Shown here in pieces: positions 30,829 to 42,366 of a stretch of 48,025 nt of DNA (its first letter is position 1; each line of letters starts with the position of its first letter). The notes under the pieces were generated by a model, which saw only the letters and a program-made list of their open reading frames with translations, did not search any database and was not told the DNA's origin. Location: positions 1 through 48,025 of the forward strand of contig JAOULO010000025.1 of the NCBI GenBank assembly GCA_029881995.1, read 5' to 3'. The translations under genes and the position numbers were made by a program. This stretch comes from Gammaproteobacteria bacterium. GTDB taxonomy: Bacteria > Pseudomonadota > Gammaproteobacteria > UBA6429 > Thiohalophilaceae.

Positions 30829-31446
30829 ATGATAACAGCCAGTGAAGCCATCTCCCGTTTAAAAGACGGAAATCAGCGATTTGTATCAGGTGTGCGTAGC
30901 ATTGATACTATAGTAAAACAGATTAAACGTTCTGATTTTGTAAAAGGACAAGCGCCTTTCGCAATTATCCTTGGTTGTTCCGATTCCAGAGTACCTGCTG
31001 AAATCGTTTTTGATCAGGGCCTGGGAGATCTTTTTGTAATCCGGGTAGCTGGAAATATTGTTGCTTCTTCCCAGATAGGTAGTGTCGAGTTTGCAGCCGA
31101 AGTATTTGGAACACCACTGGTAGTAGTACTGGGGCACTCCATGTGTGGAGCAGTCATGGCTACAATTGAGGAATTGCAAGCCCCCAATTCCGATAAAGAA
31201 CATTCCCATAATATTCAGGCTATTGTCAGCCGAATTCGACCCGCAGTTGAGCCGTTGATTCATCCTGGGATTCATCATGAATCAGATAAATTACTGGCAT
31301 CGGCAATCCGTGCCAATATCCTTGCCTCAACCAACCATCTTCGTCATGGCTCAGAAATTCTTGAGCATTTAATACAGGAAGGAAAGCTCAAAATTATTGG
31401 TGCGGAATATTCTCTGGAAACAGGAGTTGTTACCTTTTTTGACTGA
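30829..31446 (+). CDS. Beta-class carbonic anhydrase
   Basis: Interconverts CO2 and bicarbonate in the cytoplasm. The 205-residue product has the beta-class zinc ligands and dyad: Cys50, Asp52 and Arg54 in ILGCSDSRVPAE, His103 and Cys106 in VLGHSMCGAVM, plus the FVIRVAGNIV strand. No signal peptide is present. It precedes the LCIB-like gene and the DAB operon on the same strand, so it probably belongs to the carbon-supply locus, but gaps of 166 and 225 bases with promoter-like sequences suggest separate transcription. AAGG eight bases before ATG supports the start. A TATACA (30787-30792) is a possible -10 box but its -35 is weak. Confidence 0.95.
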   Translation: MITASEAISRLKDGNQRFVSGVRSIDTIVKQIKRSDFVKGQAPFAIILGCSDSRVPAEIVFDQGLGDLFVIRVAGNIVASSQIGSVEFAAEVFGTPLVVVLGHSMCGAVMATIEELQAPNSDKEHSHNIQAIVSRIRPAVEPLIHPGIHHESDKLLASAIRANILASTNHLRHGSEILEHLIQEGKLKIIGAEYSLETGVVTFFD

Positions 31447-31612: not shown

Positions 31613-32758
31613 GTGTACCGTACTAGTGGTTCTATATCAAGCGTGCTTGGTGCATTTCACATGGCAGAAGTATCCATGCGTTACAGTCTGTTTGTTCCAC
31701 GATTATATAACCTGGCTTTATCACTGGGTTTTGAAAAGGGCAAAATAATGCCTTCTCGTGCCTTTTGCTCCGATGAAAGCCAGGGTTATCCAATCATTCT
31801 TATTGCAAAACACTTTGGTACATTTCCTTTCAACCATGGTCGGGTGGGAGGAATTGTCGCTACAGACCGTCATGGCCCTCATGCTCACCATGGTAAGGAT
31901 TTAATTATCGTACAGGCCAGCCATGTTGGTTATGACCCTCAGACAGGAAGCTTTGGCATCTATCGTCGCTTACAGACTGAGCATCAGGAAGACAGTACCA
32001 GCTGCGGTAAAATCTGTGGTGCCATTGACTGGTATCTGCATGAATATGAATTTGCCAAACAAAATATTTTCTTAACCACCGATGGCAAGGACCACCTGGT
32101 TATTATCGATAATCAACTGTTACATACCGAGCGTGATGAAGGCCTATTGCTGAAACTTGAACGCCTTATCAATCTGGACGATCATGGTACACCTATGCCT
32201 AAACAGTGTTTAAGTACCTCCAAGGTATTTAAAGCCTCCTCTGTTCTGGAAAGTTATCTGGATAATTATGAGTGGAAAGCCGAATACAAAGACCCTATTG
32301 GCGAACACCTGCATCCGGATCTGTTTTTCTACCGACGTGATGTCTCGCAACATGCTGAGGGAGGAGATCATCTGGAACCTAACCTACTCGAAGTCATGCC
32401 CTATGTCGTAACATCAAAATGGCCTGCCCTGACCGCAGCACAGGCCAATACCCAGGTCGAATTTGATAGAGCCTATAGAACGATAATAAAGGAGCCAGCC
32501 TACCAGGGTAAAAAACTACTTTTCATCGCAGGCTTGAATGTTGATATCTCACCCCAACCCGGCCAGTTCTTTCCCTTGACCAAGTTTATCCCTTGGGCTG
32601 CCTACTATCAGGATGAGCAGGGAAAACAACAAACCTGGGAACAAACTGACCTGTTTGAACAGCTAATTGCCCAGTCCACCGAAAACTCGGACCAGATTGA
32701 TATGGAGACAGCTATCGAAATTATGGGGAACGTAGATGAGATCAAGTTACCATTTTAA
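31613..32758 (+). CDS. LCIB-like protein (limiting-CO2-inducible B/C family, beta/theta carbonic anhydrase fold)
   Basis: The 381-residue protein resembles the LCIB/C family of algae and bacteria, whose structures show a beta-type carbonic anhydrase site. Candidate zinc ligands and context are Cys52 with Asp54 and Glu55 in AFCSDESQG, His104 in QASHVGYDP, the GSFGIYRR strand, and Cys131 and Cys135 in STSCGKICGAI. The region 64-140 is rich in Gly and His (KHFGTFPFNHGRVGG, HGPHAHHGK), as expected. No signal peptide or membrane segment is seen. The start is GTG with AAGGGGG four to five bases upstream. LCIB homologues occur near DAB operons in some chemoautotrophs, which fits the dabA gene downstream. 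Activity is not proven, as several LCIB proteins are inactive. Confidence 0.75.
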   Translation: MYRTSGSISSVLGAFHMAEVSMRYSLFVPRLYNLALSLGFEKGKIMPSRAFCSDESQGYPIILIAKHFGTFPFNHGRVGGIVATDRHGPHAHHGKDLIIVQASHVGYDPQTGSFGIYRRLQTEHQEDSTSCGKICGAIDWYLHEYEFAKQNIFLTTDGKDHLVIIDNQLLHTERDEGLLLKLERLINLDDHGTPMPKQCLSTSKVFKASSVLESYLDNYEWKAEYKDPIGEHLHPDLFFYRRDVSQHAEGGDHLEPNLLEVMPYVVTSKWPALTAAQANTQVEFDRAYRTIIKEPAYQGKKLLFIAGLNVDISPQPGQFFPLTKFIPWAAYYQDEQGKQQTWEQTDLFEQLIAQSTENSDQIDMETAIEIMGNVDEIKLPF

Positions 32759-32848: not shown

Positions 32849-32876
32849 TTGATATTACTTAAAATTTCTGTATAAT
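32849..32876 (+). promoter_or_regulatory. Predicted sigma-70 promoter for the five-gene DAB operon
   Basis: TTGATA (32849-32854), a 16-base spacer and a perfect TATAAT (32871-32876) lie about 108 bases before the first NuoM-like gene. It is the best promoter match in this part of the window. The long leader (about 100 bases) could hold further control. Confidence 0.65.
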
Positions 32877-32983: not shown

Positions 32984-34456
32984 ATGGGTGTCTTGACGCA
33001 ATTGCTGCTAATTCCACTGCTGGGAGCCCTCCTTATCCTGCTGACACCAAAACAATGGCAGTCCCTGATTCGACCAATTGCCATCCTGCATGCACTTGCC
33101 ACACTGATTCTGGCATGGTCCCTTATCGCCAGTTTTGACACAAGCCTGACCTCACTCCAGTTTGCCGAACACCATGTCTGGAATTCACGACTTGGAACTG
33201 CCTATTCCTTAGGTATCGATGGATTTTCTTTCCCCATGGTTCTCCTGGCAACACTGCTTTGCCTGATTGCCATCATGGCATCAGGCAGCATCAATAAAAT
33301 GATGAAAGGCTATTACCTGCTTATTCTGTTGCTGGAAACCGCCATGTTGGGTGTATTTCTCGCCCAGGACTGGACCCTGTTTTACATTTTCTGGGAGTTA
33401 ACCCTGTTACCCCTGTTCTTTTTGATCGATCGCTGGGGAGGAAAACAGCGCCACCAGGCATCATTAAACTTTGTACTTTATACCATGGGTGGATCGGCCT
33501 TTATGTTGATCAGCCTGTTGGTGTTATTCGATACCTTGCCTGGTCATACCTTCAATATGCAGGCCATGATTGAGAGCGCAGCCGGACTTGATCCGGATGT
33601 GCAAGTTTTAATTTTTCTTGGCTTGCTGATTGGTTTTGGTGTCAAGATGCCCATTTTTCCCTTACATGGCTGGTTACCACTGGCCCATGTTGAAGCACCC
33701 AGCCCCATCAGTATCTTGCTATCCGGTGTTTTATTAAAAATGGGTTCGTATGGTTTGATACGTGCAGCCACCATGCTACCCGAGGCCGTGGTCAGTATGC
33801 AGAATTTTCTGGCCGGTATAGCTTTATTCAGCCTGATCTATGGAGGCCTGTTGGCCTGGCGTCAATCAGATATGAAGGGCATGATCGCCTACTCTTCTGT
33901 TAGTCATATGGGTGTAGTATTACTTGGCATAGCCACCCTCAATGTTACTGGACTCACAGGTGCCGTAATGCAAATGGTGGCCCACGGTCTGGTTGCCGGT
34001 CTGATGTTTCTCATGATTGGCCTTTTATATGAACGTACCCATACTCGCGATGTAAATCACTACAGTTCTCTGATACGTACCACTCCCCGCTTTGCCTTCT
34101 TTACTGTGCTTGCCTTTATCGCTGCTGTTGGTCTTCCAGGCACGGCTGGTTTTATCGCTGAGTTACATGCCCTTATTGGTGGTTATGAACGCTGGGGCTG
34201 GGTGGTTGTATTACTGACGGTGGGAGTCATGATCAGTGCCGCCTATGCCATTCGAACGGTTGGCCGACTCTTTACCGGCCCAATTCGCGATGAAATGCGT
34301 GATATTGCCGATCTGAAAGCCACTGAAATGCTTGCGGCTGGTGTGCTCAGTCTGGGGATCGTGCTGATGGGCGTCTTTCCAGCCCGGGTACTGGAGTTAT
34401 TCAGTGCCTCAGTGAATGTGCTGGGTGCAAGCTTTGCAAAATTTAAGGGACTGTGA
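32984..34456 (+). CDS. NuoM-like antiporter subunit 1 of the DAB operon (PF00361)
   Basis: A 490-residue polytopic membrane protein of the complex I / Mrp antiporter family, about 14 membrane segments. It is the most canonical NuoM of the set: GIDGFSFPMVLL, Glu138 in YIFWELTLLPLFFLI, Lys221 in GFGVKMPIFPLHGWLP, and Lys252 in SGVLLKMGSYGLIR, the residues of the ion half-channel. No nuoA-K genes are near, so it is not part of complex I. Its stop overlaps the dabA start (TGATG), so it should be made together with DabA. The likely role is ion (H+ or Na+) translocation driving bicarbonate uptake; this is inferred. No clear Shine-Dalgarno sequence precedes ATG 32984. Confidence 0.88.
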   Translation: MGVLTQLLLIPLLGALLILLTPKQWQSLIRPIAILHALATLILAWSLIASFDTSLTSLQFAEHHVWNSRLGTAYSLGIDGFSFPMVLLATLLCLIAIMASGSINKMMKGYYLLILLLETAMLGVFLAQDWTLFYIFWELTLLPLFFLIDRWGGKQRHQASLNFVLYTMGGSAFMLISLLVLFDTLPGHTFNMQAMIESAAGLDPDVQVLIFLGLLIGFGVKMPIFPLHGWLPLAHVEAPSPISILLSGVLLKMGSYGLIRAATMLPEAVVSMQNFLAGIALFSLIYGGLLAWRQSDMKGMIAYSSVSHMGVVLLGIATLNVTGLTGAVMQMVAHGLVAGLMFLMIGLLYERTHTRDVNHYSSLIRTTPRFAFFTVLAFIAAVGLPGTAGFIAELHALIGGYERWGWVVVLLTVGVMISAAYAIRTVGRLFTGPIRDEMRDIADLKATEMLAAGVLSLGIVLMGVFPARVLELFSASVNVLGASFAKFKGL

Positions 34457-37400
34457 TGCAAACAGAAAATAATTCACAGCCTTCAGTAAAAGATGTCCGA
34501 CAACAAATACGTGAGTTAATCGATCATCTAGCCCATATATTACCAGGGCAGGCCCCCATTAAAGATTTTGTACACCACAATACCTTGCATGGCTTTCAAC
34601 ATCTGCCCTTTCCTGCAGCACTTGAAGCGGCACGCAAAGTAACGGGTATCGATGGGTATTTACCAGAAAATGAATTCAGAAAACTGTATAAGCAGGACAG
34701 GATTACCCGGCAAGATCTACTTGATGTAATTCGCAGTGATAAAAACTTTGCGGACGACGAGCCAGTGCTAACATGTCAGAGTAAACCTATTACCCGAGCT
34801 GAAATTATCCTCACTGCTCTAATAAACCCAATCACCACCGTGACGGGTTGTCAGCTGACCTGGCAAATTGAAGAACAACATGCCTTAACGCGATTCCAGC
34901 CAGATGTCAGTGAATCAAGCCGTAAACACTTTTTTTCTAACATGAGACAGCAGGTATCAAGTGAGGCCAGTGCAATTACTGAGCTATGGTCTGCCTGTCT
35001 CAGAGTATTAGATTTACAACATTTTGTTTTGCATCCGGAAGAACTGGTCGACCTCGATCCTGATGATGCAGAAAAAATGCTCTCCGACAGTCTACATGAG
35101 ACCATCGAAACAGGTGGTGAGCATGTAACTCGACGCATGGTTTTGAAAGAAGCCGAAAAATTATTAAGCCATACCCTTGGTCGCGTTGGCCCGGAACTGA
35201 CTATACGTGATGTATTACATTTGCTGACGGGCCAGGATCTGCTCGAAGAAATCCGCCCTGCCCTGATCAGGCACCTTTCCGCCTACCTTGATCAAGGTAT
35301 GGCAGCATGGCACCACCCACAAAGGCAACTTGGTTTTTATGCCAGTTGGAAACAAAGTGCCCTACAGGACATGACCTGGAGTCTTGACAACATGTCTGAG
35401 ATTACCGATGAGTTGAATCACCTGCCTAATGATGCATTTGAAACGGTTATTACTGAACTTAAGTTAATTGGAATCCCGGAAAAACACTGGCCCCAGTATC
35501 TTGAAAGACTGGCACTGGAACTGCCCGGCTGGTCAGGAATGTTCCTATGGCGATCTCAAAACCCAGGCTATGAATCTCTGCTGCCAGAGCATGTGGACAT
35601 GATGGATTATCTTGCTGTGCGACTGATACTTGAACGGCTCTATGCTCGACGCATTTGTCGTGACCAGTGGTCAATTGGTCCTCGACTCGATCTGATTCGT
35701 TGGTACTTCCGTCAACATCCCTATCAGTTCATGGTGCGCTATATCCTGCACACCAGTCGTCTACCTGAATACCTCACTTCACGGGCTCAGAGTCTGGTAA
35801 AACAGTTTAACCAGGAATTTGATGATGACAACCAGTGGCAATTGCTTGCACAAATGATCTGGACCTGGCGTCAAAGTCCGGCCTCGGACAATCCTGTCGG
35901 GCATAGTGTATTTGGCAGTGCCTGGCGCCTGTTCCGACTGGCACAACACATGGGCCTGCCTGCCGAGGTCATTGCGACTTGCAATAAATCACAGGTAGAA
36001 GACATCTTAAATTGCCTTGATGCATTAACTGAGGGTGTGCGGGGCTTTATCTGGTTACAGGCCTACGAAAACCACTATCGTGATCAGCTCTTCAATGCAT
36101 TAGTAAACAACCGTGGTCGTGGCCGGTGGGCCAGCCGTGAACAACGTCCACAGGCACAGGTCGTGTTCTGTATGGATGATCGTGAAGAAGGTATTCGTCG
36201 TCATCTTGAAGAACTCAATCCGGCCATTGAAACCATGGGGGCTGCTGGATTCTTTGGGGTAGCCATAAACTGGCGTGGCATGGATGATGAAAAAATCACC
36301 CCGCTTTGTCCTGTGGTTGTCACACCCGCCCATGAAATACGGGAAATCCCTGCAGCAGGTGAAGAGCAAAAGAAAACAGCCCATGACAAACGTCGTCAAC
36401 TGCGCCTGAAATTGAGTGAGGTGTTTTATCAGGAAACCCGGCGCAATCTATTCACCAGCAGTGTCTTGATTACGAGTAGTGCGTTTGTCGCAATGCCTGT
36501 ATTGCTAACAAAATTATTCCTGCCCTTTACCAGTGGACAAATATCAAACTGGCTGCTTAAGAGTTTTGATTTAAATATTAACAGCCGCATTGTAATTAAT
36601 GCACAAACCAACACTGAAGCAAGCATTGAACACCCACGCCTTGGATTTACCGATGAGGAACAGGCAGACCGAGTACAAAACTTTCTGCGAACCATTGGTC
36701 TACAGCAGGGTTTGGGTTCATTTGTGGTAATGATGGGACACGGTTCCATTAGTCAGAATAATCCACATCTGTCGGCCTATGACTGTGGTGCCTGTAGTGG
36801 TCGACACGGTGGTCCCAATGCACGAACCTTCGCGGCCATGGCCAATCGACCTGAAGTGAGAAAGATTCTTAAAGATCGAGGTATCGATATACCCAAAGAC
36901 ACCTGGGTCATGGGTGCTGAACACAATACCTGTGATGAAACCATCACCTGGTATGATATAGATCTGATTCCAGATACTTTAAAACCGGCCTTTACAAAAT
37001 TACAGGCTGAATTAAAACAGGCCACAAAAATGTCTGCACATGAACGGTCACGCCGTTTTGCTTCTGCTCCACGCAAACTGTCACCGGCGCGTGCATTACG
37101 CCATGTCATCGGACGTTCAACAGATTTCAGCCAGGCCCGCCCAGAACTGGGGCATGCGACCAATGCCGCAGCCTTCATTGGTCGGCGCTCCATCAGTCAG
37201 GGAACCTTCTATGATCGACGTGTGTTTCTAATTTCCTATGATCCGACACAGGATCTGGAAGGAAAGGTACTGGAAGCGATTCTCCTGGCAGCCGGTCCAG
37301 TAGGTGCAGGGATCAATCTGGAATATTACTTCTCGACTGTTAATAACGACAAGTATGGCTGTGGTAGCAAGGTAACCCATAATGTCACCGGGCTGTTTGG

Positions 37401-37755
37401 TGTAATGGAAGGTACTGCCAGTGATCTGCGTACCGGATTACCAAAACAAATGATCGAAATCCATGAGGCCATGCGATTACAGATCGTTGTAGAAGCCAGC
37501 ACCGAGGTGCTAACCACAATATATAAACGCCAAGCCCCTTTACAGGAACTGGTTGGAAATGGCTGGTTACTACTCAATGCAATCGATCCCGATAGCGGTG
37601 AAATTACTATGTTTAAACCCGAGCAGGGTTTTGTCAAATGGGAAGGGGAAGTCAGTAATTTACCAGAAGTAGCCAGTTCAACAAACTGGTATGCTGGACA
37701 CCAGACTCCCCTGACGCCTGCCCTGATTAAACAAGCGGAGTTTGCCAATGGCTGA
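34456..37755 (+). CDS. dabA: DabA-type inorganic carbon transporter subunit (UPF0753/DUF2309)
   Basis: The zinc-containing cytoplasmic subunit of DAB complexes, thought to act as a vectorial carbonic anhydrase energised by DabB. The product is 1099 residues from ATG 34456 (GTG 34453 is one codon earlier). Numbering from 34453, the active-site residues known from Halothiobacillus DabA are all present: Cys573 and Asp575 in VVFCMDDREEGIRRHLE, His763 in VMMGHGS, and Cys778 in YDCGACSGRHGG. The N-terminal HHNTLHGFQHLPFPAAL and FRKLYKQDRI motifs are family hallmarks. It is longer than the DabA proteins of about 800-850 residues. AGGGA five bases before ATG favours that start. It overlaps both neighbours, showing tight coupling. 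Confidence 0.93.
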   Translation: MQTENNSQPSVKDVRQQIRELIDHLAHILPGQAPIKDFVHHNTLHGFQHLPFPAALEAARKVTGIDGYLPENEFRKLYKQDRITRQDLLDVIRSDKNFADDEPVLTCQSKPITRAEIILTALINPITTVTGCQLTWQIEEQHALTRFQPDVSESSRKHFFSNMRQQVSSEASAITELWSACLRVLDLQHFVLHPEELVDLDPDDAEKMLSDSLHETIETGGEHVTRRMVLKEAEKLLSHTLGRVGPELTIRDVLHLLTGQDLLEEIRPALIRHLSAYLDQGMAAWHHPQRQLGFYASWKQSALQDMTWSLDNMSEITDELNHLPNDAFETVITELKLIGIPEKHWPQYLERLALELPGWSGMFLWRSQNPGYESLLPEHVDMMDYLAVRLILERLYARRICRDQWSIGPRLDLIRWYFRQHPYQFMVRYILHTSRLPEYLTSRAQSLVKQFNQEFDDDNQWQLLAQMIWTWRQSPASDNPVGHSVFGSAWRLFRLAQHMGLPAEVIATCNKSQVEDILNCLDALTEGVRGFIWLQAYENHYRDQLFNALVNNRGRGRWASREQRPQAQVVFCMDDREEGIRRHLEELNPAIETMGAAGFFGVAINWRGMDDEKITPLCPVVVTPAHEIREIPAAGEEQKKTAHDKRRQLRLKLSEVFYQETRRNLFTSSVLITSSAFVAMPVLLTKLFLPFTSGQISNWLLKSFDLNINSRIVINAQTNTEASIEHPRLGFTDEEQADRVQNFLRTIGLQQGLGSFVVMMGHGSISQNNPHLSAYDCGACSGRHGGPNARTFAAMANRPEVRKILKDRGIDIPKDTWVMGAEHNTCDETITWYDIDLIPDTLKPAFTKLQAELKQATKMSAHERSRRFASAPRKLSPARALRHVIGRSTDFSQARPELGHATNAAAFIGRRSISQGTFYDRRVFLISYDPTQDLEGKVLEAILLAAGPVGAGINLEYYFSTVNNDKYGCGSKVTHNVTGLFGVMEGTASDLRTGLPKQMIEIHEAMRLQIVVEASTEVLTTIYKRQAPLQELVGNGWLLLNAIDPDSGEITMFKPEQGFVKWEGEVSNLPEVASSTNWYAGHQTPLTPALIKQAEFANG

Positions 37756-39316
37756 ACAATGGATCTGGCTTGTCCCTCTTCTGCCCACCCTGGCATCCGC
37801 ATGGATCCTGCTGGGTATGCTTTTTGGATTTAATCGTGGCGAACGGGGTGAACGTCAAACCGCACTTGTTATACAAACCGCTTCGCTGCTGTCTTTGTTA
37901 TTACTATTGGCACTGATGTTTAATGCTGTTCCCCGTCAACAACTACCTGGTCTGATCGATATTACTACCTGGTTTAGCACAGGCGATTATCAGATTAAAC
38001 TGAACTTCTTACTTGATGGGCTGGCCCTTGGTCTTTCACTGGTGGTCGCACTGGTATCACTGCTGAGCATACGTTTCTCAGTGAACTACATGCATCGTGA
38101 GGCCGGTTTCCAACGTTTCTTTGCCATACTGGGACTGTTTAATGGTGCAATGCTGCTGATTGTTCTGGCAGGCAATGCCATGCTGACCTTCATTGGATGG
38201 GAGCTGGCCGGAGTCAGCTCTTACCTGCTGATTGCCTATGCCTATGACCGACCAAATGCCACTGAAAATGCAACACGGGCCTTCGTGACCAATCGTATTG
38301 GTGACACCGGTTTCATTCTGGCTATAACATTCTCATTTATACTGCTGGGTAATGTCGACTGGCCGAGTATTAACGCAGGCAATGAAAATAAAGCCGGCTT
38401 CTCTCTGGTCATTATCATGATCGGGTTCCTGATGGCCGCCATGGCCAAATCCGCACTGGTCCCTTTTTCATCATGGATCACCCGTGCCCTCGAAGGTCCC
38501 ACACCTTCCAGCGCCGTTTTCTATGGTTCACTGATGGTGCATTCCGGTGTTTACCTGATCATACGTTTACAGCCCTTATTCGAACAAAGCCCGTTTATGA
38601 TGTTTATACTGATATTAATCGGGGCACTTACAGCGATTTACGGTTTTCTTGGTGGCCTGGTGCAAACCGATGTTAAAAGCAGCCTGATGTTTTCCACCAC
38701 TGGCCAGGTGGGTCTGATGTTCATTTCATGCGGCCTTGGCCTGTTTGAAATAGCGGCCTGGCATCTTGGCCTACATGCTATCTGGCGTGCATATCATTTT
38801 CTCAATGCACCCGCCATGCTTCATCTTATGCATAAACCTGCACGTCCTGTCCCCGCCTGGTTACAGAACAGAAAATGGTTATACCTGGCTTCGGTACAGC
38901 GGTTTTGGCTTGACAACCTCGCCAATGCCATGCTGGTACGTCCGGCATTAAACATGGCACATGACGTACAGCGCTTTGATGAACAGATCGTCGTACGTGC
39001 AGTTGGCCTGCCCAATTCAGTAGGCGCCATTTCATCCCTGGCACAATGGGAAGAATACAAGGATGACAATACCGGTAAACTGATCGGTGACAGTGGTGCT
39101 ATCGGTCGTGGCCGTGGCGCACTGGGCAATCTAATGGAATGGCTGGCATCGGTGTTTAGCTGGTTTGAGGAACACCTGGTTTTAAAAGGGGGAGATGAAG
39201 GTGTCATCAGTCTAATCCAGCATGCTGGCCATTATCTGAATCGGCTGGAAAAATTGCTATCCCAACCTCGATACCTGTTCCTGATGATTATTCTAACTTT
39301 TGCCGTCATTTTGTAA
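37748..39316 (+). CDS. dabB: NuoL-like DabB-type membrane subunit (PF00361)
   Basis: The 522-residue membrane protein most like DabB by position and NuoL features: LLDGLALGLSLVVAL, Glu154 in FIGWELAGVSSYLLIAY, NRIGDTGFILA and Lys236 in AKSALVPFSSWITRALEGPTPSS (numbered from TTG 37742). I prefer ATG 37748 because GGAG lies seven bases upstream; it overlaps dabA by eight bases. Oddities: the NuoL His of ALIHA-type sequence is Tyr here (AVFYGSLMV), the Lys of the broken helix 12 is Arg349 (HAIWRAYHFL), and residues 365-500 are mostly hydrophilic before one last membrane segment. It probably couples ion flow to DabA. Confidence 0.88.
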   Translation: MAEQWIWLVPLLPTLASAWILLGMLFGFNRGERGERQTALVIQTASLLSLLLLLALMFNAVPRQQLPGLIDITTWFSTGDYQIKLNFLLDGLALGLSLVVALVSLLSIRFSVNYMHREAGFQRFFAILGLFNGAMLLIVLAGNAMLTFIGWELAGVSSYLLIAYAYDRPNATENATRAFVTNRIGDTGFILAITFSFILLGNVDWPSINAGNENKAGFSLVIIMIGFLMAAMAKSALVPFSSWITRALEGPTPSSAVFYGSLMVHSGVYLIIRLQPLFEQSPFMMFILILIGALTAIYGFLGGLVQTDVKSSLMFSTTGQVGLMFISCGLGLFEIAAWHLGLHAIWRAYHFLNAPAMLHLMHKPARPVPAWLQNRKWLYLASVQRFWLDNLANAMLVRPALNMAHDVQRFDEQIVVRAVGLPNSVGAISSLAQWEEYKDDNTGKLIGDSGAIGRGRGALGNLMEWLASVFSWFEEHLVLKGGDEGVISLIQHAGHYLNRLEKLLSQPRYLFLMIILTFAVIL

Positions 39317-39319
39317 GCC

Positions 39320-40870
39320 ATGAATATCGACGAAATACATTGGACAACACAGGCCAGCTATCCTGTCCTGACCATACTGCAAACACTTCCATTGGTATCA
39401 ATGGTACTGATGTTGTTATTACGTAAGTCACGTTACATTGTCCAGATTGGGACGGGTCTGGCATTGATTGGCTTGCTGATTGCCATTGATATCTATCGCC
39501 TGTTCGATCATACCAAACCAGCTTTACAACTGGTTGAGCACATTCAGATATTTGGTGCTCTCTCCTGGCATGTAGGCGTCGACGGCATCAGCGTTTTATT
39601 CATCCTGCTTTCCAATACATTGTCACTGATGCTGGTGTTATACAGTCGTATACGTAAACTGAATCCGGCTGGATTATTCCTGGCAGTGTTGTTTACCATC
39701 ATGGCGACCATACAGGCCATGTATGTCACACAAAACCTGTTAATGTTTGCCATCATGTCGGGTATTGAACTTTTGTTGATTGGTTACTTGCTACATCGCT
39801 GGGCATCATTTTCCGATGGTGGCTTATGTGAAAAACGTTATTTCCAGTTTATGGGAACAGGTATTGTGTTGTTTCTGGCAGGTACCCTGATGCTCGGCTG
39901 GAACTACGCAGAACTGCACAATGGATTCTGGAGCTTTAATATTAACGATCTGAAAAGTACGGCAGTCAACGATAATATTAACAGCATTGTCTTCTTCCTG
40001 TTGTTCTATGGACTGGCCATACGAATTCCCCTGTTTCCCATGCATGGCTGGCTGCCATTGATCGCCGAACATGGCACTGTTGCTGTTTCCGGCGTGTTGC
40101 TGCTGGGACTTAAGACCGGGGTCTATGGTCTGATCCATTTCGTCATGCCGGTTTTGCCCAATGCAATACTGCAATGGCAGGAATTCATCGTGGCCTTTGC
40201 CTTGATTGGTATTTTCTATGCGGCCATCCTGGCTTTGATGCAAACCAATTTACGCCGACTACTTGCTTTTGCAGTAATCAGTCATACCAGTGTACTTGTG
40301 ATTGGTCTGTTTACTCTGCACCATGCTGCGTTCCAGGGTAGCATGATGTTATCCGTCAACTTTGGTCTTGCTACATCACTGTTATTATTCATGGCTGGCC
40401 TGGTCTACCACCGCACTCACACCATGCAGTTATCACGCCTGGGAGGCCTGTTTGATCATATTCCATTTATCGGCATCGCCTTTCTGATTGCAGGACTGAG
40501 TATTATCGGAATGCCCGGCACACCTGGCTTTGATGCTGTACACCTGATGCTTGAGGCATCGATTGTTCGATTTGGCGCTTTATTAACCATCGCAGCAGCA
40601 CTGGGTAATGTTATTGCTGCTGGTTTTTTATTGTATGCCTTCCAGCGAGCATTCCTGTCACCCCGTAAAAACTCATTGCCAGCCTATAAAGTACAGAAGA
40701 TCACTCATACTGAAACCATACTGGCAGCAAGTATGATTATGACTCTGTTATGGGCTGGCTTTCATACCGAACCCTGGCTTGATCTAATGGAGAACACACT
40801 CAAGGTGCTGGAAAGCCAGTTTGTTCAACCTGGGGCAGCACACTCAATGTTGAATATAGAAGTTAAATAA
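39320..40870 (+). CDS. Divergent NuoM-like subunit 2 of the DAB operon (PF00361)
   Basis: A 516-residue polytopic membrane protein of the antiporter-like family, three bases after the NuoL-like gene. It keeps GVDGISVLFILL, HGWLPLIAEHG, Lys265 in LLGLKTGVYGL and LRRLLAFAVISH. The usual FWE motif is degenerate (MSGIELLLIGYLLHRW), though a Glu remains at 150. The central channel lysine (GFxVKxPxFP) is replaced by Arg235 in GLAIRIPLFPMHG. Residues 160-215 carry an extra hydrophilic loop (FSDGGLCEKRYF and ELHNGFWSFNI). It may have a changed ion path or a structural role. The ribosome-binding site is weak, so coupling is likely. Confidence 0.85.
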   Translation: MNIDEIHWTTQASYPVLTILQTLPLVSMVLMLLLRKSRYIVQIGTGLALIGLLIAIDIYRLFDHTKPALQLVEHIQIFGALSWHVGVDGISVLFILLSNTLSLMLVLYSRIRKLNPAGLFLAVLFTIMATIQAMYVTQNLLMFAIMSGIELLLIGYLLHRWASFSDGGLCEKRYFQFMGTGIVLFLAGTLMLGWNYAELHNGFWSFNINDLKSTAVNDNINSIVFFLLFYGLAIRIPLFPMHGWLPLIAEHGTVAVSGVLLLGLKTGVYGLIHFVMPVLPNAILQWQEFIVAFALIGIFYAAILALMQTNLRRLLAFAVISHTSVLVIGLFTLHHAAFQGSMMLSVNFGLATSLLLFMAGLVYHRTHTMQLSRLGGLFDHIPFIGIAFLIAGLSIIGMPGTPGFDAVHLMLEASIVRFGALLTIAAALGNVIAAGFLLYAFQRAFLSPRKNSLPAYKVQKITHTETILAASMIMTLLWAGFHTEPWLDLMENTLKVLESQFVQPGAAHSMLNIEVK

Positions 40871-40872
40871 CC

Positions 40873-42366
40873 ATGTCGATACTTGATCTGCCTCTTATCA
40901 GCCTGTTGATCATTACCCTGCCACTAGGTGCCTTGCTCATCTGGATCATACCCAATGCCGGTATGGCACGCTGGATCACATTATTTGCCGCACTCATCGA
41001 TCTGTGTCTGTCATTAACCATTCTTTTTAATTTTGATTCGAGCACCCCCGGTTTCCAGTTTGTTGAACAAGCGAACTGGATCCCAACCCTGAACATTCAC
41101 TATAAAGTGGGTATCGACGGTATCTCTGTCCTGTTCCTGCCAGTGACAATCCTGATATTCCTTGGCGTCATCATGTCGTCATGGAACAGCATACGCAGTA
41201 TGCCACGTCTGTATTTCTCGCTACTCCTGATGCTGGAAAGTGTCACTCTTGGCATCTTCTGTGCCCTCGACACCATGTTGTTTTTCCTGTTCTGGGAACT
41301 GACTTTGATCCCGCTGTATTTTTTAATCAGCCTATGGGGTATTGGTCCAAATCGTCGTTATGCCGCAGTAAAATACACCCTGTTTATGATGGCCGGTGGG
41401 GTGCCATTACTATTTGGATTTATCCTACTTGGGTTCAATCATGCCGAGGTTTCTAATCTCGCTATCCCTGCGGGTTTAAGCTTTGACTACCTGAAGTTAT
41501 TAAAAACTGAAGTCCCTCTCAATTTACAGATCACCATTTTCTTTTTATTGCTGATCGGTTTTGCGGTTAAAACACCGATCTTTCCCTTTCATACCTGGTT
41601 ACCGACGGTTGCAATGGAAGGACCTGCCAGTATCACTGCTTTTTTGACCGGTCTTAAGCTGGGTGCCTTCGGTATTCTCCGCTTTGTAGTTCCCCTTACC
41701 CCCGCTGCATCACAACAGTTTCACTGGTTACTGGCGGGACTGGGTGTTATTGGCATCCTCTATGGTGCTATTGCTGCTTTAAACCAGACCAACCTGCGGC
41801 GGATGCTGGCCTTTTCCAGTTTTAGTCATGTCGGCCTGGTATTACTGGGTATTGCGTCATTTAACCTGCAAGGTATTCAGGGTGCTGTATACCAATTATT
41901 GAATTTTACCGTTATTGCCGGTGGCCTGTTCCTGTTAACCGGTATCCTGCATCATCGTATTGGTTCCACTGATCTGATTAATCTCGGTGGTGTTGCGAAA
42001 ACCATGCCGATATTAACCGGTTTCTATTTCCTGTTTGGTCTGGCCAGTATGGGAATTCCCGGCACCAACGGCTTTATCGCGGAGTTTCTGATTTTATTCA
42101 GTGCATTGCAGACCCATACCGGTGCAGGACTTGCTGCCCTTGCTGGTGTTGTAATCGGGTCAGCCTATTTCCTTGGGAGTTATCGTCGTGCATTTTTGGG
42201 GCCAGTTAACAGTCAGGTTGTGGCAGATGTTATTGATCTCAGAAAACGTGAATTACTGCTGTTCCTGCTAATCGCTGTCATCATCATTAGCACTGGTATA
42301 TACCCCCAGTATGTCCTTGAGACAACACGTCTGGCCAGTGAGAACTGGATTGGCTTTCTTAAATAG
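40873..42366 (+). CDS. NuoM-like antiporter subunit 3 of the DAB operon (PF00361)
   Basis: A 497-residue polytopic membrane protein, two bases after the preceding gene and last in the operon. It has the full NuoM set: GIDGISVLFLPV, Glu142 in LFFLFWELTLIPLYFLI, Lys233 in GFAVKTPIFPFHTWLP and Lys262 in LTGLKLGAFGILRF, and LRRMLAFSSFSHVGLVLLG. It therefore looks capable of ion translocation. Together with subunit 1 and the NuoL-like protein it gives the operon at least three apparently functional antiporter modules. Its stop lies three bases from the convergent nhaC stop. Confidence 0.87.
   Translation: MSILDLPLISLLIITLPLGALLIWIIPNAGMARWITLFAALIDLCLSLTILFNFDSSTPGFQFVEQANWIPTLNIHYKVGIDGISVLFLPVTILIFLGVIMSSWNSIRSMPRLYFSLLLMLESVTLGIFCALDTMLFFLFWELTLIPLYFLISLWGIGPNRRYAAVKYTLFMMAGGVPLLFGFILLGFNHAEVSNLAIPAGLSFDYLKLLKTEVPLNLQITIFFLLLIGFAVKTPIFPFHTWLPTVAMEGPASITAFLTGLKLGAFGILRFVVPLTPAASQQFHWLLAGLGVIGILYGAIAALNQTNLRRMLAFSSFSHVGLVLLGIASFNLQGIQGAVYQLLNFTVIAGGLFLLTGILHHRIGSTDLINLGGVAKTMPILTGFYFLFGLASMGIPGTNGFIAEFLILFSALQTHTGAGLAALAGVVIGSAYFLGSYRRAFLGPVNSQVVADVIDLRKRELLLFLLIAVIIISTGIYPQYVLETTRLASENWIGFLK

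Follow-up and report, generated by a model that had tools for sequence, protein, structure and literature searches.

What is a single DabA, a subunit resembling beta-carbonic anhydrases, doing among four antiporter-like membrane proteins? The question is raised by five abutting genes on the + strand of a 48,025-nt stretch of DNA (contig JAOULO010000025.1; this whole stretch is the window, and all coordinates of the locus refer to it). An earlier, sequence-only reading of the window had described the order NuoM-like, DabA, NuoL-like, NuoM-like, NuoM-like at 32984-42366, with every junction overlapping or within three bases, as an enlarged DAB (DABs accumulate bicarbonate) pump. Open reading frames (ORFs) and domain scans confirmed this order, and the junctions are as tight as described, the extremes being an overlap of 8 bases and a gap of 3: with ATG starts, the first gene (M1) overlaps DabA by 1 base and DabA overlaps the NuoL-like gene (L) by 8 bases, and gaps of 3 and 2 bases separate L from the fourth gene (M2) and M2 from the fifth (M3). 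DabA scores 827.8 bits against PF10070 (curated cut-off 25) and aligns to DabA2 of Protein Data Bank (PDB) entry 9rd0 at E 4.2e-72. L carries PF00361 (143 bits) and PF00662 (53.6 bits), is matched by the best NuoL models only to about residue 365, and matches DabB2 of the same entry over residues 55-363 (E 2.6e-32). Against the NuoM model TIGR01972 (curated cut-off 263.8), M1, M2 and M3 score 485, 283 and 475 bits, M2 being the most divergent.

Using a DabA scan across the genomes of 84,980 species, we fetched the best 80 of 296 relatives, which were picked by likeness to the source DabA and so give no estimate of how frequent this type is among all DabA genes. All 57 loci with enough flanking sequence hold the five families in identical order; 55 are exact, one has L in two frames and one has the DabA-L pair doubled. 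The remaining 23 loci end at contig ends, and eight of these still have all five genes in order, as does a further one (L037) with M2 in two pieces. The four junctions lie within 20 bases in 70/74, 66/76, 62/69 and 57/66 of the relatives' loci, with distances taken from the longest possible frame, so that true gaps may be larger. Because the order recurs in 57 of 57 relatives, it is not a matter of chance. In the DabA tree, five-gene DabA proteins form one clade (SH-like approximate likelihood ratio test, SH-aLRT, 99). Among the hosts are many bacteria that oxidise sulfur or methane, along with magnetic bacteria. In Methylobacter tundripaludum SV96 (L050:13554-16087) L is split into frames of 362 and 178 aa with about 900 bases between them, and in Thiothrix (L060:8442-23114) the order is M1-DabA-L-DabA-L-M2-M3, the second DabA branching elsewhere within the clade. 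A plasmid search with M2 returned distant antiporter-like matches only, all below 60 percent identity and at 29-30 percent among the ten listed.

Co-inheritance was followed in two samples, 369 class genomes and 398 phylum genomes, each drawn evenly and overlapping in part; two candidates per genome were scored for DabA (in most genomes) and four (class) or three (phylum) for M2. DabA is present in 83/369 class and 69/398 phylum genomes (G590 of the phylum set only under the curated cut-off). The M2 model reaches at least 550 bits in 17/369 class and 35/398 phylum genomes, plus one phylum genome with a split gene; scores are bimodal, the rest of the matches listed staying at or below 348 bits except for one piece of the split gene. 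From genome lists compiled by hand from the search results, the phylum sample has 36 genomes with M2 and DabA, none with M2 only, 33 with DabA only and 329 with neither; the corresponding figures for the class sample are 16, 1 (G250, 77 percent complete), 67 and 285. Twenty phylum loci were fetched: eight are two-gene loci, all from M2-negative genomes, and twelve have a DabA of the five-gene class, all from M2-positive genomes. Part of the 67 DabA-only genomes of the class sample was fetched and classed, and two genomes counted as DabA-only (G087 and G353) carry a DabA of the five-gene class on contigs broken off within L (L172 and L178).

In several genomes the cluster has come apart. In two species of one genus (G104 and G234) DabA precedes a 1045-aa frame that joins L to M2, and M1 and M3 lie elsewhere; in G110, M1-L-M2-M3 form one cluster and DabA is on a separate contig; G541 and G545 have M1-M3-L-M2 together and DabA apart; and in G364 one contig carries M1-DabA and another carries M2 with an adjacent NuoM-like gene. 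In these scattered clusters the parts looked for persist, a pattern that speaks against mere neutral proximity and against M genes with a place in some other system. Conserved order, co-occurrence across the 369 and 398 genomes, persistence when scattered and a natural L-M2 fusion support the conclusion that the five genes behave as one inherited unit.

An alternative is an ordinary DAB pump of two subunits, DabA and L, with M1, M2 and M3 making up a separate co-transcribed antiporter or pump. DabA and L are doubled as a pair in the Thiothrix locus, the four membrane genes stand together without DabA in two lineages (L207; L205 and L206), and the near relatives L210 and L231 have only DabA, L and one very divergent M. 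Against it, one genus has L and M2 fused, L remains beside the M genes where DabA has moved, and M2 lacks a detected DabA in only 1 of the 53 M2-bearing sample entries (the incomplete G250). L moreover lacks the helices that house the DabA finger in DAB2, the DabA2-DabB2 pump of 9rd0, and DabA lacks the finger glutamate; because these helices and this glutamate are missing, DabA and L alone would be without the proton route of DAB2. We consider this alternative unlikely.

The other DabA loci fetched fall mainly into two types, one with DabB directly before a DabA of ~800-880 aa (two-gene) and one with DabB, a gap of mostly ~700-780 bases and then a DabA of ~1040-1060 aa (DAB1-type). For class comparisons we counted ORFs of 480-600 aa and >400 bits as L, of 460-620 aa and >500 bits as M, and of >1000 aa and >1000 bits in a locus with a counted L as five-gene DabA; these counts contain copies, distinct sequences being 86/92 for L, 92/98 for M1, 82/88 for M2, 76/82 for M3 and 85/91 for DabA. 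The relatives that are classed also supplied the class models, which makes the class labels partly circular, though scores are bimodal. In quick trees with SH-aLRT support only, the nearest neighbours of the five-gene DabA clade are L210, L231 and the long-branched L214, in a tree that may join long branches (L231/L214, L213/L215). L forms a clade (99) to which the L210 and L231 proteins attach (100) and which is separate from DabB and NuoL, and M1, M2 and M3 each form one clade within the NuoM branch, M2 with M3 (96) and M1 beside NuoM (86). The DabA-L-M clusters L231:110-5716 and L210:2750-8624, near the five-gene clade, have the same L signature and a single very divergent M. Outside that clade, L134:1-10102 and L230 (genome G061) encode a 950-aa DabA in an operon with Mrp-like genes (the small ones named by eye) and NuoL-like (674-aa) and NuoM-like (497-aa) proteins, a further case of a DabA accompanied by several antiporter-like subunits.

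NuoM-type subunits are related to Mrp antiporters, and the set could be an antiporter, of sodium and protons or linked to bicarbonate, that serves pH or ion balance and in which DabA senses or buffers bicarbonate. That kinship and the one sampled DabA in an Mrp-like operon (L134) favour such a role, as do the convergent NhaC-like gene downstream of the operon and the failure to find shell genes, and often RuBisCO, in the hosts. M1-M3 group with NuoM, however, and not with the three MrpD-like rows of the tree; the zinc ligands and the Asp-Arg dyad of DabA are invariant, as in a working anhydrase; and beta-carbonic anhydrase and LCIB-like genes lie upstream. An antiporter with DabA as sensor or buffer seems improbable to us.

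The residues of DabA divide into those that the family shares and those that set the five-gene class apart. The DabA2 zinc ligands Cys351, His524 and Cys539 and the dyad Asp353-Arg355 all have their counterparts in the source DabA, and C573, D575, R577, H763 and C778 are identical in 91/91 five-gene DabA; the first three are also invariant in the 31 two-gene and 26 DAB1-type proteins. By contrast, the glutamate of the membrane finger is found in 0/91 five-gene DabA (9 have Asp, and in 79/91 the finger stretch is free of acidic residues) against 31/31 and 26/26 in the other classes. The position of Leu658 is His in 91/91 against Leu in 31/31 and 26/26, and that of Ser356 is Glu in 91/91 against Ser in 31/31 and 26/26. 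His901 is found in L210 and L231 too, again with the finger Glu missing, and the Mrp-linked L134 has Leu and Asp. The passages of the DAB2 study cited here (PMC13144422) place Leu658 at the transition-state position of beta-carbonic anhydrases, with Leu strictly conserved in 150 DabA2 homologues, and report that E444A or E444Q abolishes activity, that H260A and K347A impair it significantly and that I151E halves growth yield. Because residues critical in DAB2 are altered, the five-gene class should couple differently, and judged from the alignments it probably does not follow the proton route described for DAB2. The DabA model is of fair quality (predicted local distance difference test, pLDDT, 80.5; predicted template modelling score, pTM, 0.78); a Foldseek search of the PDB library with it gave no match at E <=0.001, but the DAB2 entries themselves were not recovered either, so that this negative is uninformative.

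The presence of the canonical beta-carbonic anhydrase His means that DabA may catalyse freely, and some hosts are, from record titles, methanotrophs, which make CO2 inside the cell. Both points would suit reverse operation, in which cytoplasmic CO2 hydration drives ions out. Simple arithmetic is against it: in cellular conditions hydration yields only a few kJ/mol, less than the cost of one proton against 150 mV (~14 kJ/mol), so that export of several ions is not feasible. DAB2, too, is reported to be driven by the proton-motive force in the hydration direction. We regard reverse operation as very improbable.

L, too, departs from DabB. The glutamate of transmembrane helix (TM) 5 is present in 90/91 other L (L027 has Lys), in 0/32 two-gene DabB and in 0/29 DAB1-type DabB. 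L also has Tyr in place of the TM8 His with a His six residues on, and Arg in place of the TM11 Lys, each in 91/91; by position and spacing we match these altered sites to DabB2 His260 and Lys347. An AlphaFold2 model of L (pLDDT 85.1, pTM 0.79; poorly predicted within 427-453, at 427-435 and 443-453) ends in helices at 387-421, 460-480, 485-506 and 509-523. It superposes on NuoL, for example on 7p64_L over 388 residues at 2.2 A, and because model residues 5-404 span chain residues 1-554, about 150 residues of NuoL are skipped. The model thus implies that L consists of TM1-11, lacks TM12-14 and continues with lateral-helix-like helices and one last membrane helix. A hydropathy count, crude enough to find fewer membrane helices than AlphaFold2 and serving only for class comparison, gives 0-1 hydrophobic segments after TM11 in 91/91 other L, 2-4 in the 32 two-gene DabB and 4 in the 29 DAB1-type DabB. 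Among the 50 structure matches listed for the L model, the DAB2 chains do not appear.

We aligned the M proteins to NuoM of the source genome and counted residues over 98 M1 (source included), 88 M2 and 82 M3. Four charges, in TM5, TM7, TM8 and TM12, are identical throughout M1 (Glu138, Lys221, Lys252 and Glu393; each 98/98) and M3 (Glu142, Lys233, Lys262 and Glu404; 82/82), and M1 keeps the TM11 His in 98/98. M2 is different: the TM8 Lys is kept in 88/88, the TM7 Lys has become Arg (Arg235) in 88/88, and the TM12 Glu is gone in 88/88 (Val407 in the source), with Asp405 (86/88), His408 (88/88) and Glu412 (87/88) close by. The TM5 column of M2 aligns poorly and is hydrophobic, with E 42, Q 41, H 3 and D 2 two residues on (n=88), and was not counted as a loss of the TM5 Glu. 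As far as these alignments go, M1-M3 and L are not four equal channels, and the four ion channels of the sequence-only reading are too many: the TM12 Glu is missing from M2 and the TM11 His from M3, and L is shortened, with altered channel residues.

The gene set, its order, its co-inheritance and the residue patterns are direct observations. What they suggest to us is that the five proteins form one membrane complex, a CO2 hydratase driven by the proton-motive force in which DabA sits on an arm of four laterally coupled antiporter-like subunits; we infer the assembly, the direction, the coupling ion and the number of protons, and give the proposal as a whole an even chance. Protons would run down the proton-motive force through M1 and M3, the subunits with four canonical charges, and shifts of charge pairs would pass sideways through M2 and L, as in complex I. 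M2, its exit glutamate lost, would be a relay. L may be a coupling piece and not a full channel, because TM12-14 are absent and its tail is lateral-helix-like; the membrane finger would carry its action to DabA, which would hydrate CO2 to bicarbonate in one direction. With at least two protons per CO2, even a weak proton-motive force could build a steep bicarbonate gradient, by arithmetic about one decade per proton per 59 mV. The more specific proposal, which we advance tentatively and at somewhat less than an even chance, is that the set represents a branch of its own among proton-driven carbonic anhydrases, one that abandoned the DAB2 proton route, with a more canonical DabA site (His901, Glu578) worked remotely by an arm of the complex I type: M1 and M3 channels, M2 a relay and L a truncated lever.

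Several points weigh against this lateral coupling. The finger alignment joins divergent stretches. His901 may mean little, because DAB2 tolerates changes of Leu658: in the cited part of the DAB2 study this residue is replaceable without loss in vivo (PMC13144422). One channel His of L (NuoL His334) is kept in only 79/91 L. M3 lacks the TM11 His of NuoM and M1 (Phe in 81/82, Leu in 1/82), which weakens it as a full channel. The residue contrasts also amount to few evolutionary events: one branch parts L from DabB and one parts the DabA clades, and because single branches separate the classes, 91 sequences set against 57 (DabA) or 61 (L) are not independent. The contrasts therefore fit the lateral model without proving it. 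Direction and coupling ion, finally, are carried over from DAB2 by analogy, and the Staphylococcus aureus relative MpsAB is argued, in the same passages, to use sodium (PMC13144422).

The genomic setting was examined for carbon fixation. In the source draft genome the RuBisCO large subunit is split over two contigs, the second with cbbS-, cbbQ- and cbbO-like ORFs (named by eye), and carboxysome shell genes (PF00936) gave 0 matches. Among 56 genomes with cluster or marker genes, many of them incomplete drafts, RuBisCO turned up in 18 and shell genes in 1, and the same numbers hold for the 41 that are >=90 percent complete and <=5 percent contaminated. The usual setting of the five-gene cluster is not a carboxysome.

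The region 32984-42366 contains, on the + strand, four PF00361 genes and DabA only, with no genes of the complex I membrane arm (NuoH, J, K, A), and no + strand ORF of >=80 aa for a small Mrp subunit (MrpB, C, E, F, G) lies between the five abutting genes. The earlier statement that no other complex I or Mrp genes are present accordingly holds for PF00361 proteins in the window. It fails for the genome, in which PF00361 has ten matches: four on this contig, all in the operon, three on contig C103 (NuoL/M/N-like) and three on C30. The last are a second antiporter-like trio of the source genome (G000, L103:5149-10036) that is not of the five-gene types. PF10070 has its single match of the whole draft genome in the operon.

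The operon is flanked by an LCIB-like gene on one side and the NhaC-like antiporter gene, just downstream, on the other (Table 1). The 79 loci used for neighbour counts include the source and omit the near-copies L004 and L005, and many are truncated at contig ends, so that the counts are lower bounds. An LCIB-like relative lies beside the operon in at least 6 of them, source locus included, and a SulP-like permease gene (named by eye) lies near it, usually upstream, in at least 20 (for example L074:3782-5371). Scans for promoters (16 found, 16.5 expected) and terminators (9 found, 8.9 expected) performed at chance level; despite this, one promoter match precedes M1.

Table 1. Positions in the window of the five genes, of residues and regions discussed in the text, and of upstream features.
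Feature	Position	Strand	Basis
Beta-carbonic anhydrase gene, upstream of the operon	30829..31446
LCIB-like protein (carbonic anhydrase family PF18599), upstream of the operon	31613..32758		24.8 bits, Pfam cut-off 25
Promoter match, 11/12 positions	32849..32876		promoter scan
M1, NuoM-like antiporter-like subunit, 490 aa	32984..34456	+	ORF list, domain scans
DabA (PF10070), 1100 aa from GTG 34453 (ATG 34456); cytoplasmic beta-carbonic-anhydrase-like subunit	34453..37755	+
DabA C573-M-D575-D-R577-E578: Zn ligand, Asp-Arg dyad, Glu578 (DabA2 Ser356)	36169..36186	+
DabA membrane finger helix, residues 666-689; Thr674 at the DAB2 Glu444 position	36448..36519	+	structure model, alignment
DabA His901 at the DabA2 Leu658 position	37153..37155	+	alignment to 9rd0 chain, residue counted along it
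L, truncated NuoL-like subunit in DabB position, 524 aa from TTG 37742 (ATG 37748)	37742..39316	+
L Glu154, equivalent to NuoL TM5 Glu144; DabB2 Ile151	38201..38203	+	alignment counts
L C-terminal amphipathic lateral-helix-like region and last membrane helix, after TM1-11 core	38900..39310	+	AlphaFold2 model
M2, divergent NuoM-like subunit, 516 aa	39320..40870	+	domain scans, residue counts
M3, NuoM-like subunit, 497 aa	40873..42366	+	ORF list, domain scans

How complex I transfers energy sideways through its antiporter-like subunits is still debated. If a five-subunit complex works as proposed here, it would offer complex-I-style lateral coupling without redox chemistry, quinone or electrons, open to mutation tests through a soluble, easily assayed reaction, CO2 to bicarbonate. 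The DAB family would gain a further architecture, and Leu658, finger Glu444 and the loss of the TM5 Glu would not be universal features of DabA and DabB. Such a complex would also supply bicarbonate in bacteria without carboxysomes, methanotrophs and magnetotactic bacteria included.

How does the set compare with what has been described? Extra NuoM genes in DabA operons and the idea of an ion count are already known. The cited passages of the COGNAT study of 2017 describe a 'clade C' in which a nuoL homologue follows ybcC (DabA), often accompanied by NuoM (COG1008) and SulP (COG0659) genes, tie gene number to ion number and suggest in general terms that an exergonic YbcC reaction drives ions out (PMC5700660). 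Those passages differ from the present analysis in giving no NuoM count or order and no residue comparison of classes, and in an outward flow of energy (PMC5700660). Our searches of an open-access library turned up no description of a fixed set of these five genes, of the distinct clade that it forms or of the changes at its coupling residues. With DAB2 (Halothiobacillus neapolitanus DabA2-DabB2; PDB 9rd0, 9rd8, 9rd9), as portrayed in the cited passages (PMC13144422), the set shares the zinc ligands, the Asp-Arg dyad, the membrane finger and a NuoL-derived partner. It differs in having four membrane subunits in place of one, an L without TM12-14 that keeps the TM5 Glu, and a DabA that has lost the finger Glu, with His for Leu658 and Glu for Ser356.

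The DAB1 type (DabA1, DabB1 and a small membrane protein) resembles the set in DabA length (1038-1111 aa, 26 rows) and in its NuoL-like partner; its loci differ in that DabB leads and DabA follows after 100-781 bases (mostly ~700-780; 29 loci). DAB1-type proteins also keep the finger Glu and Leu658 and form separate clades, and the loci read have no adjacent NuoM-type gene. The membrane arm of complex I (NuoL, NuoM, NuoN) is matched by a NuoL-like L and NuoM-like M1-M3, with the TM5 Glu and a lateral-helix-like region kept; the set differs from it in two further NuoM-type subunits and no NuoN-type one, in a truncated L, and in DabA taking the place of the redox arm. DAB complexes reportedly have one to three subunits (Schmid), and with five subunit genes the set at this locus is, as the sequence-only reading had held, larger than those described.

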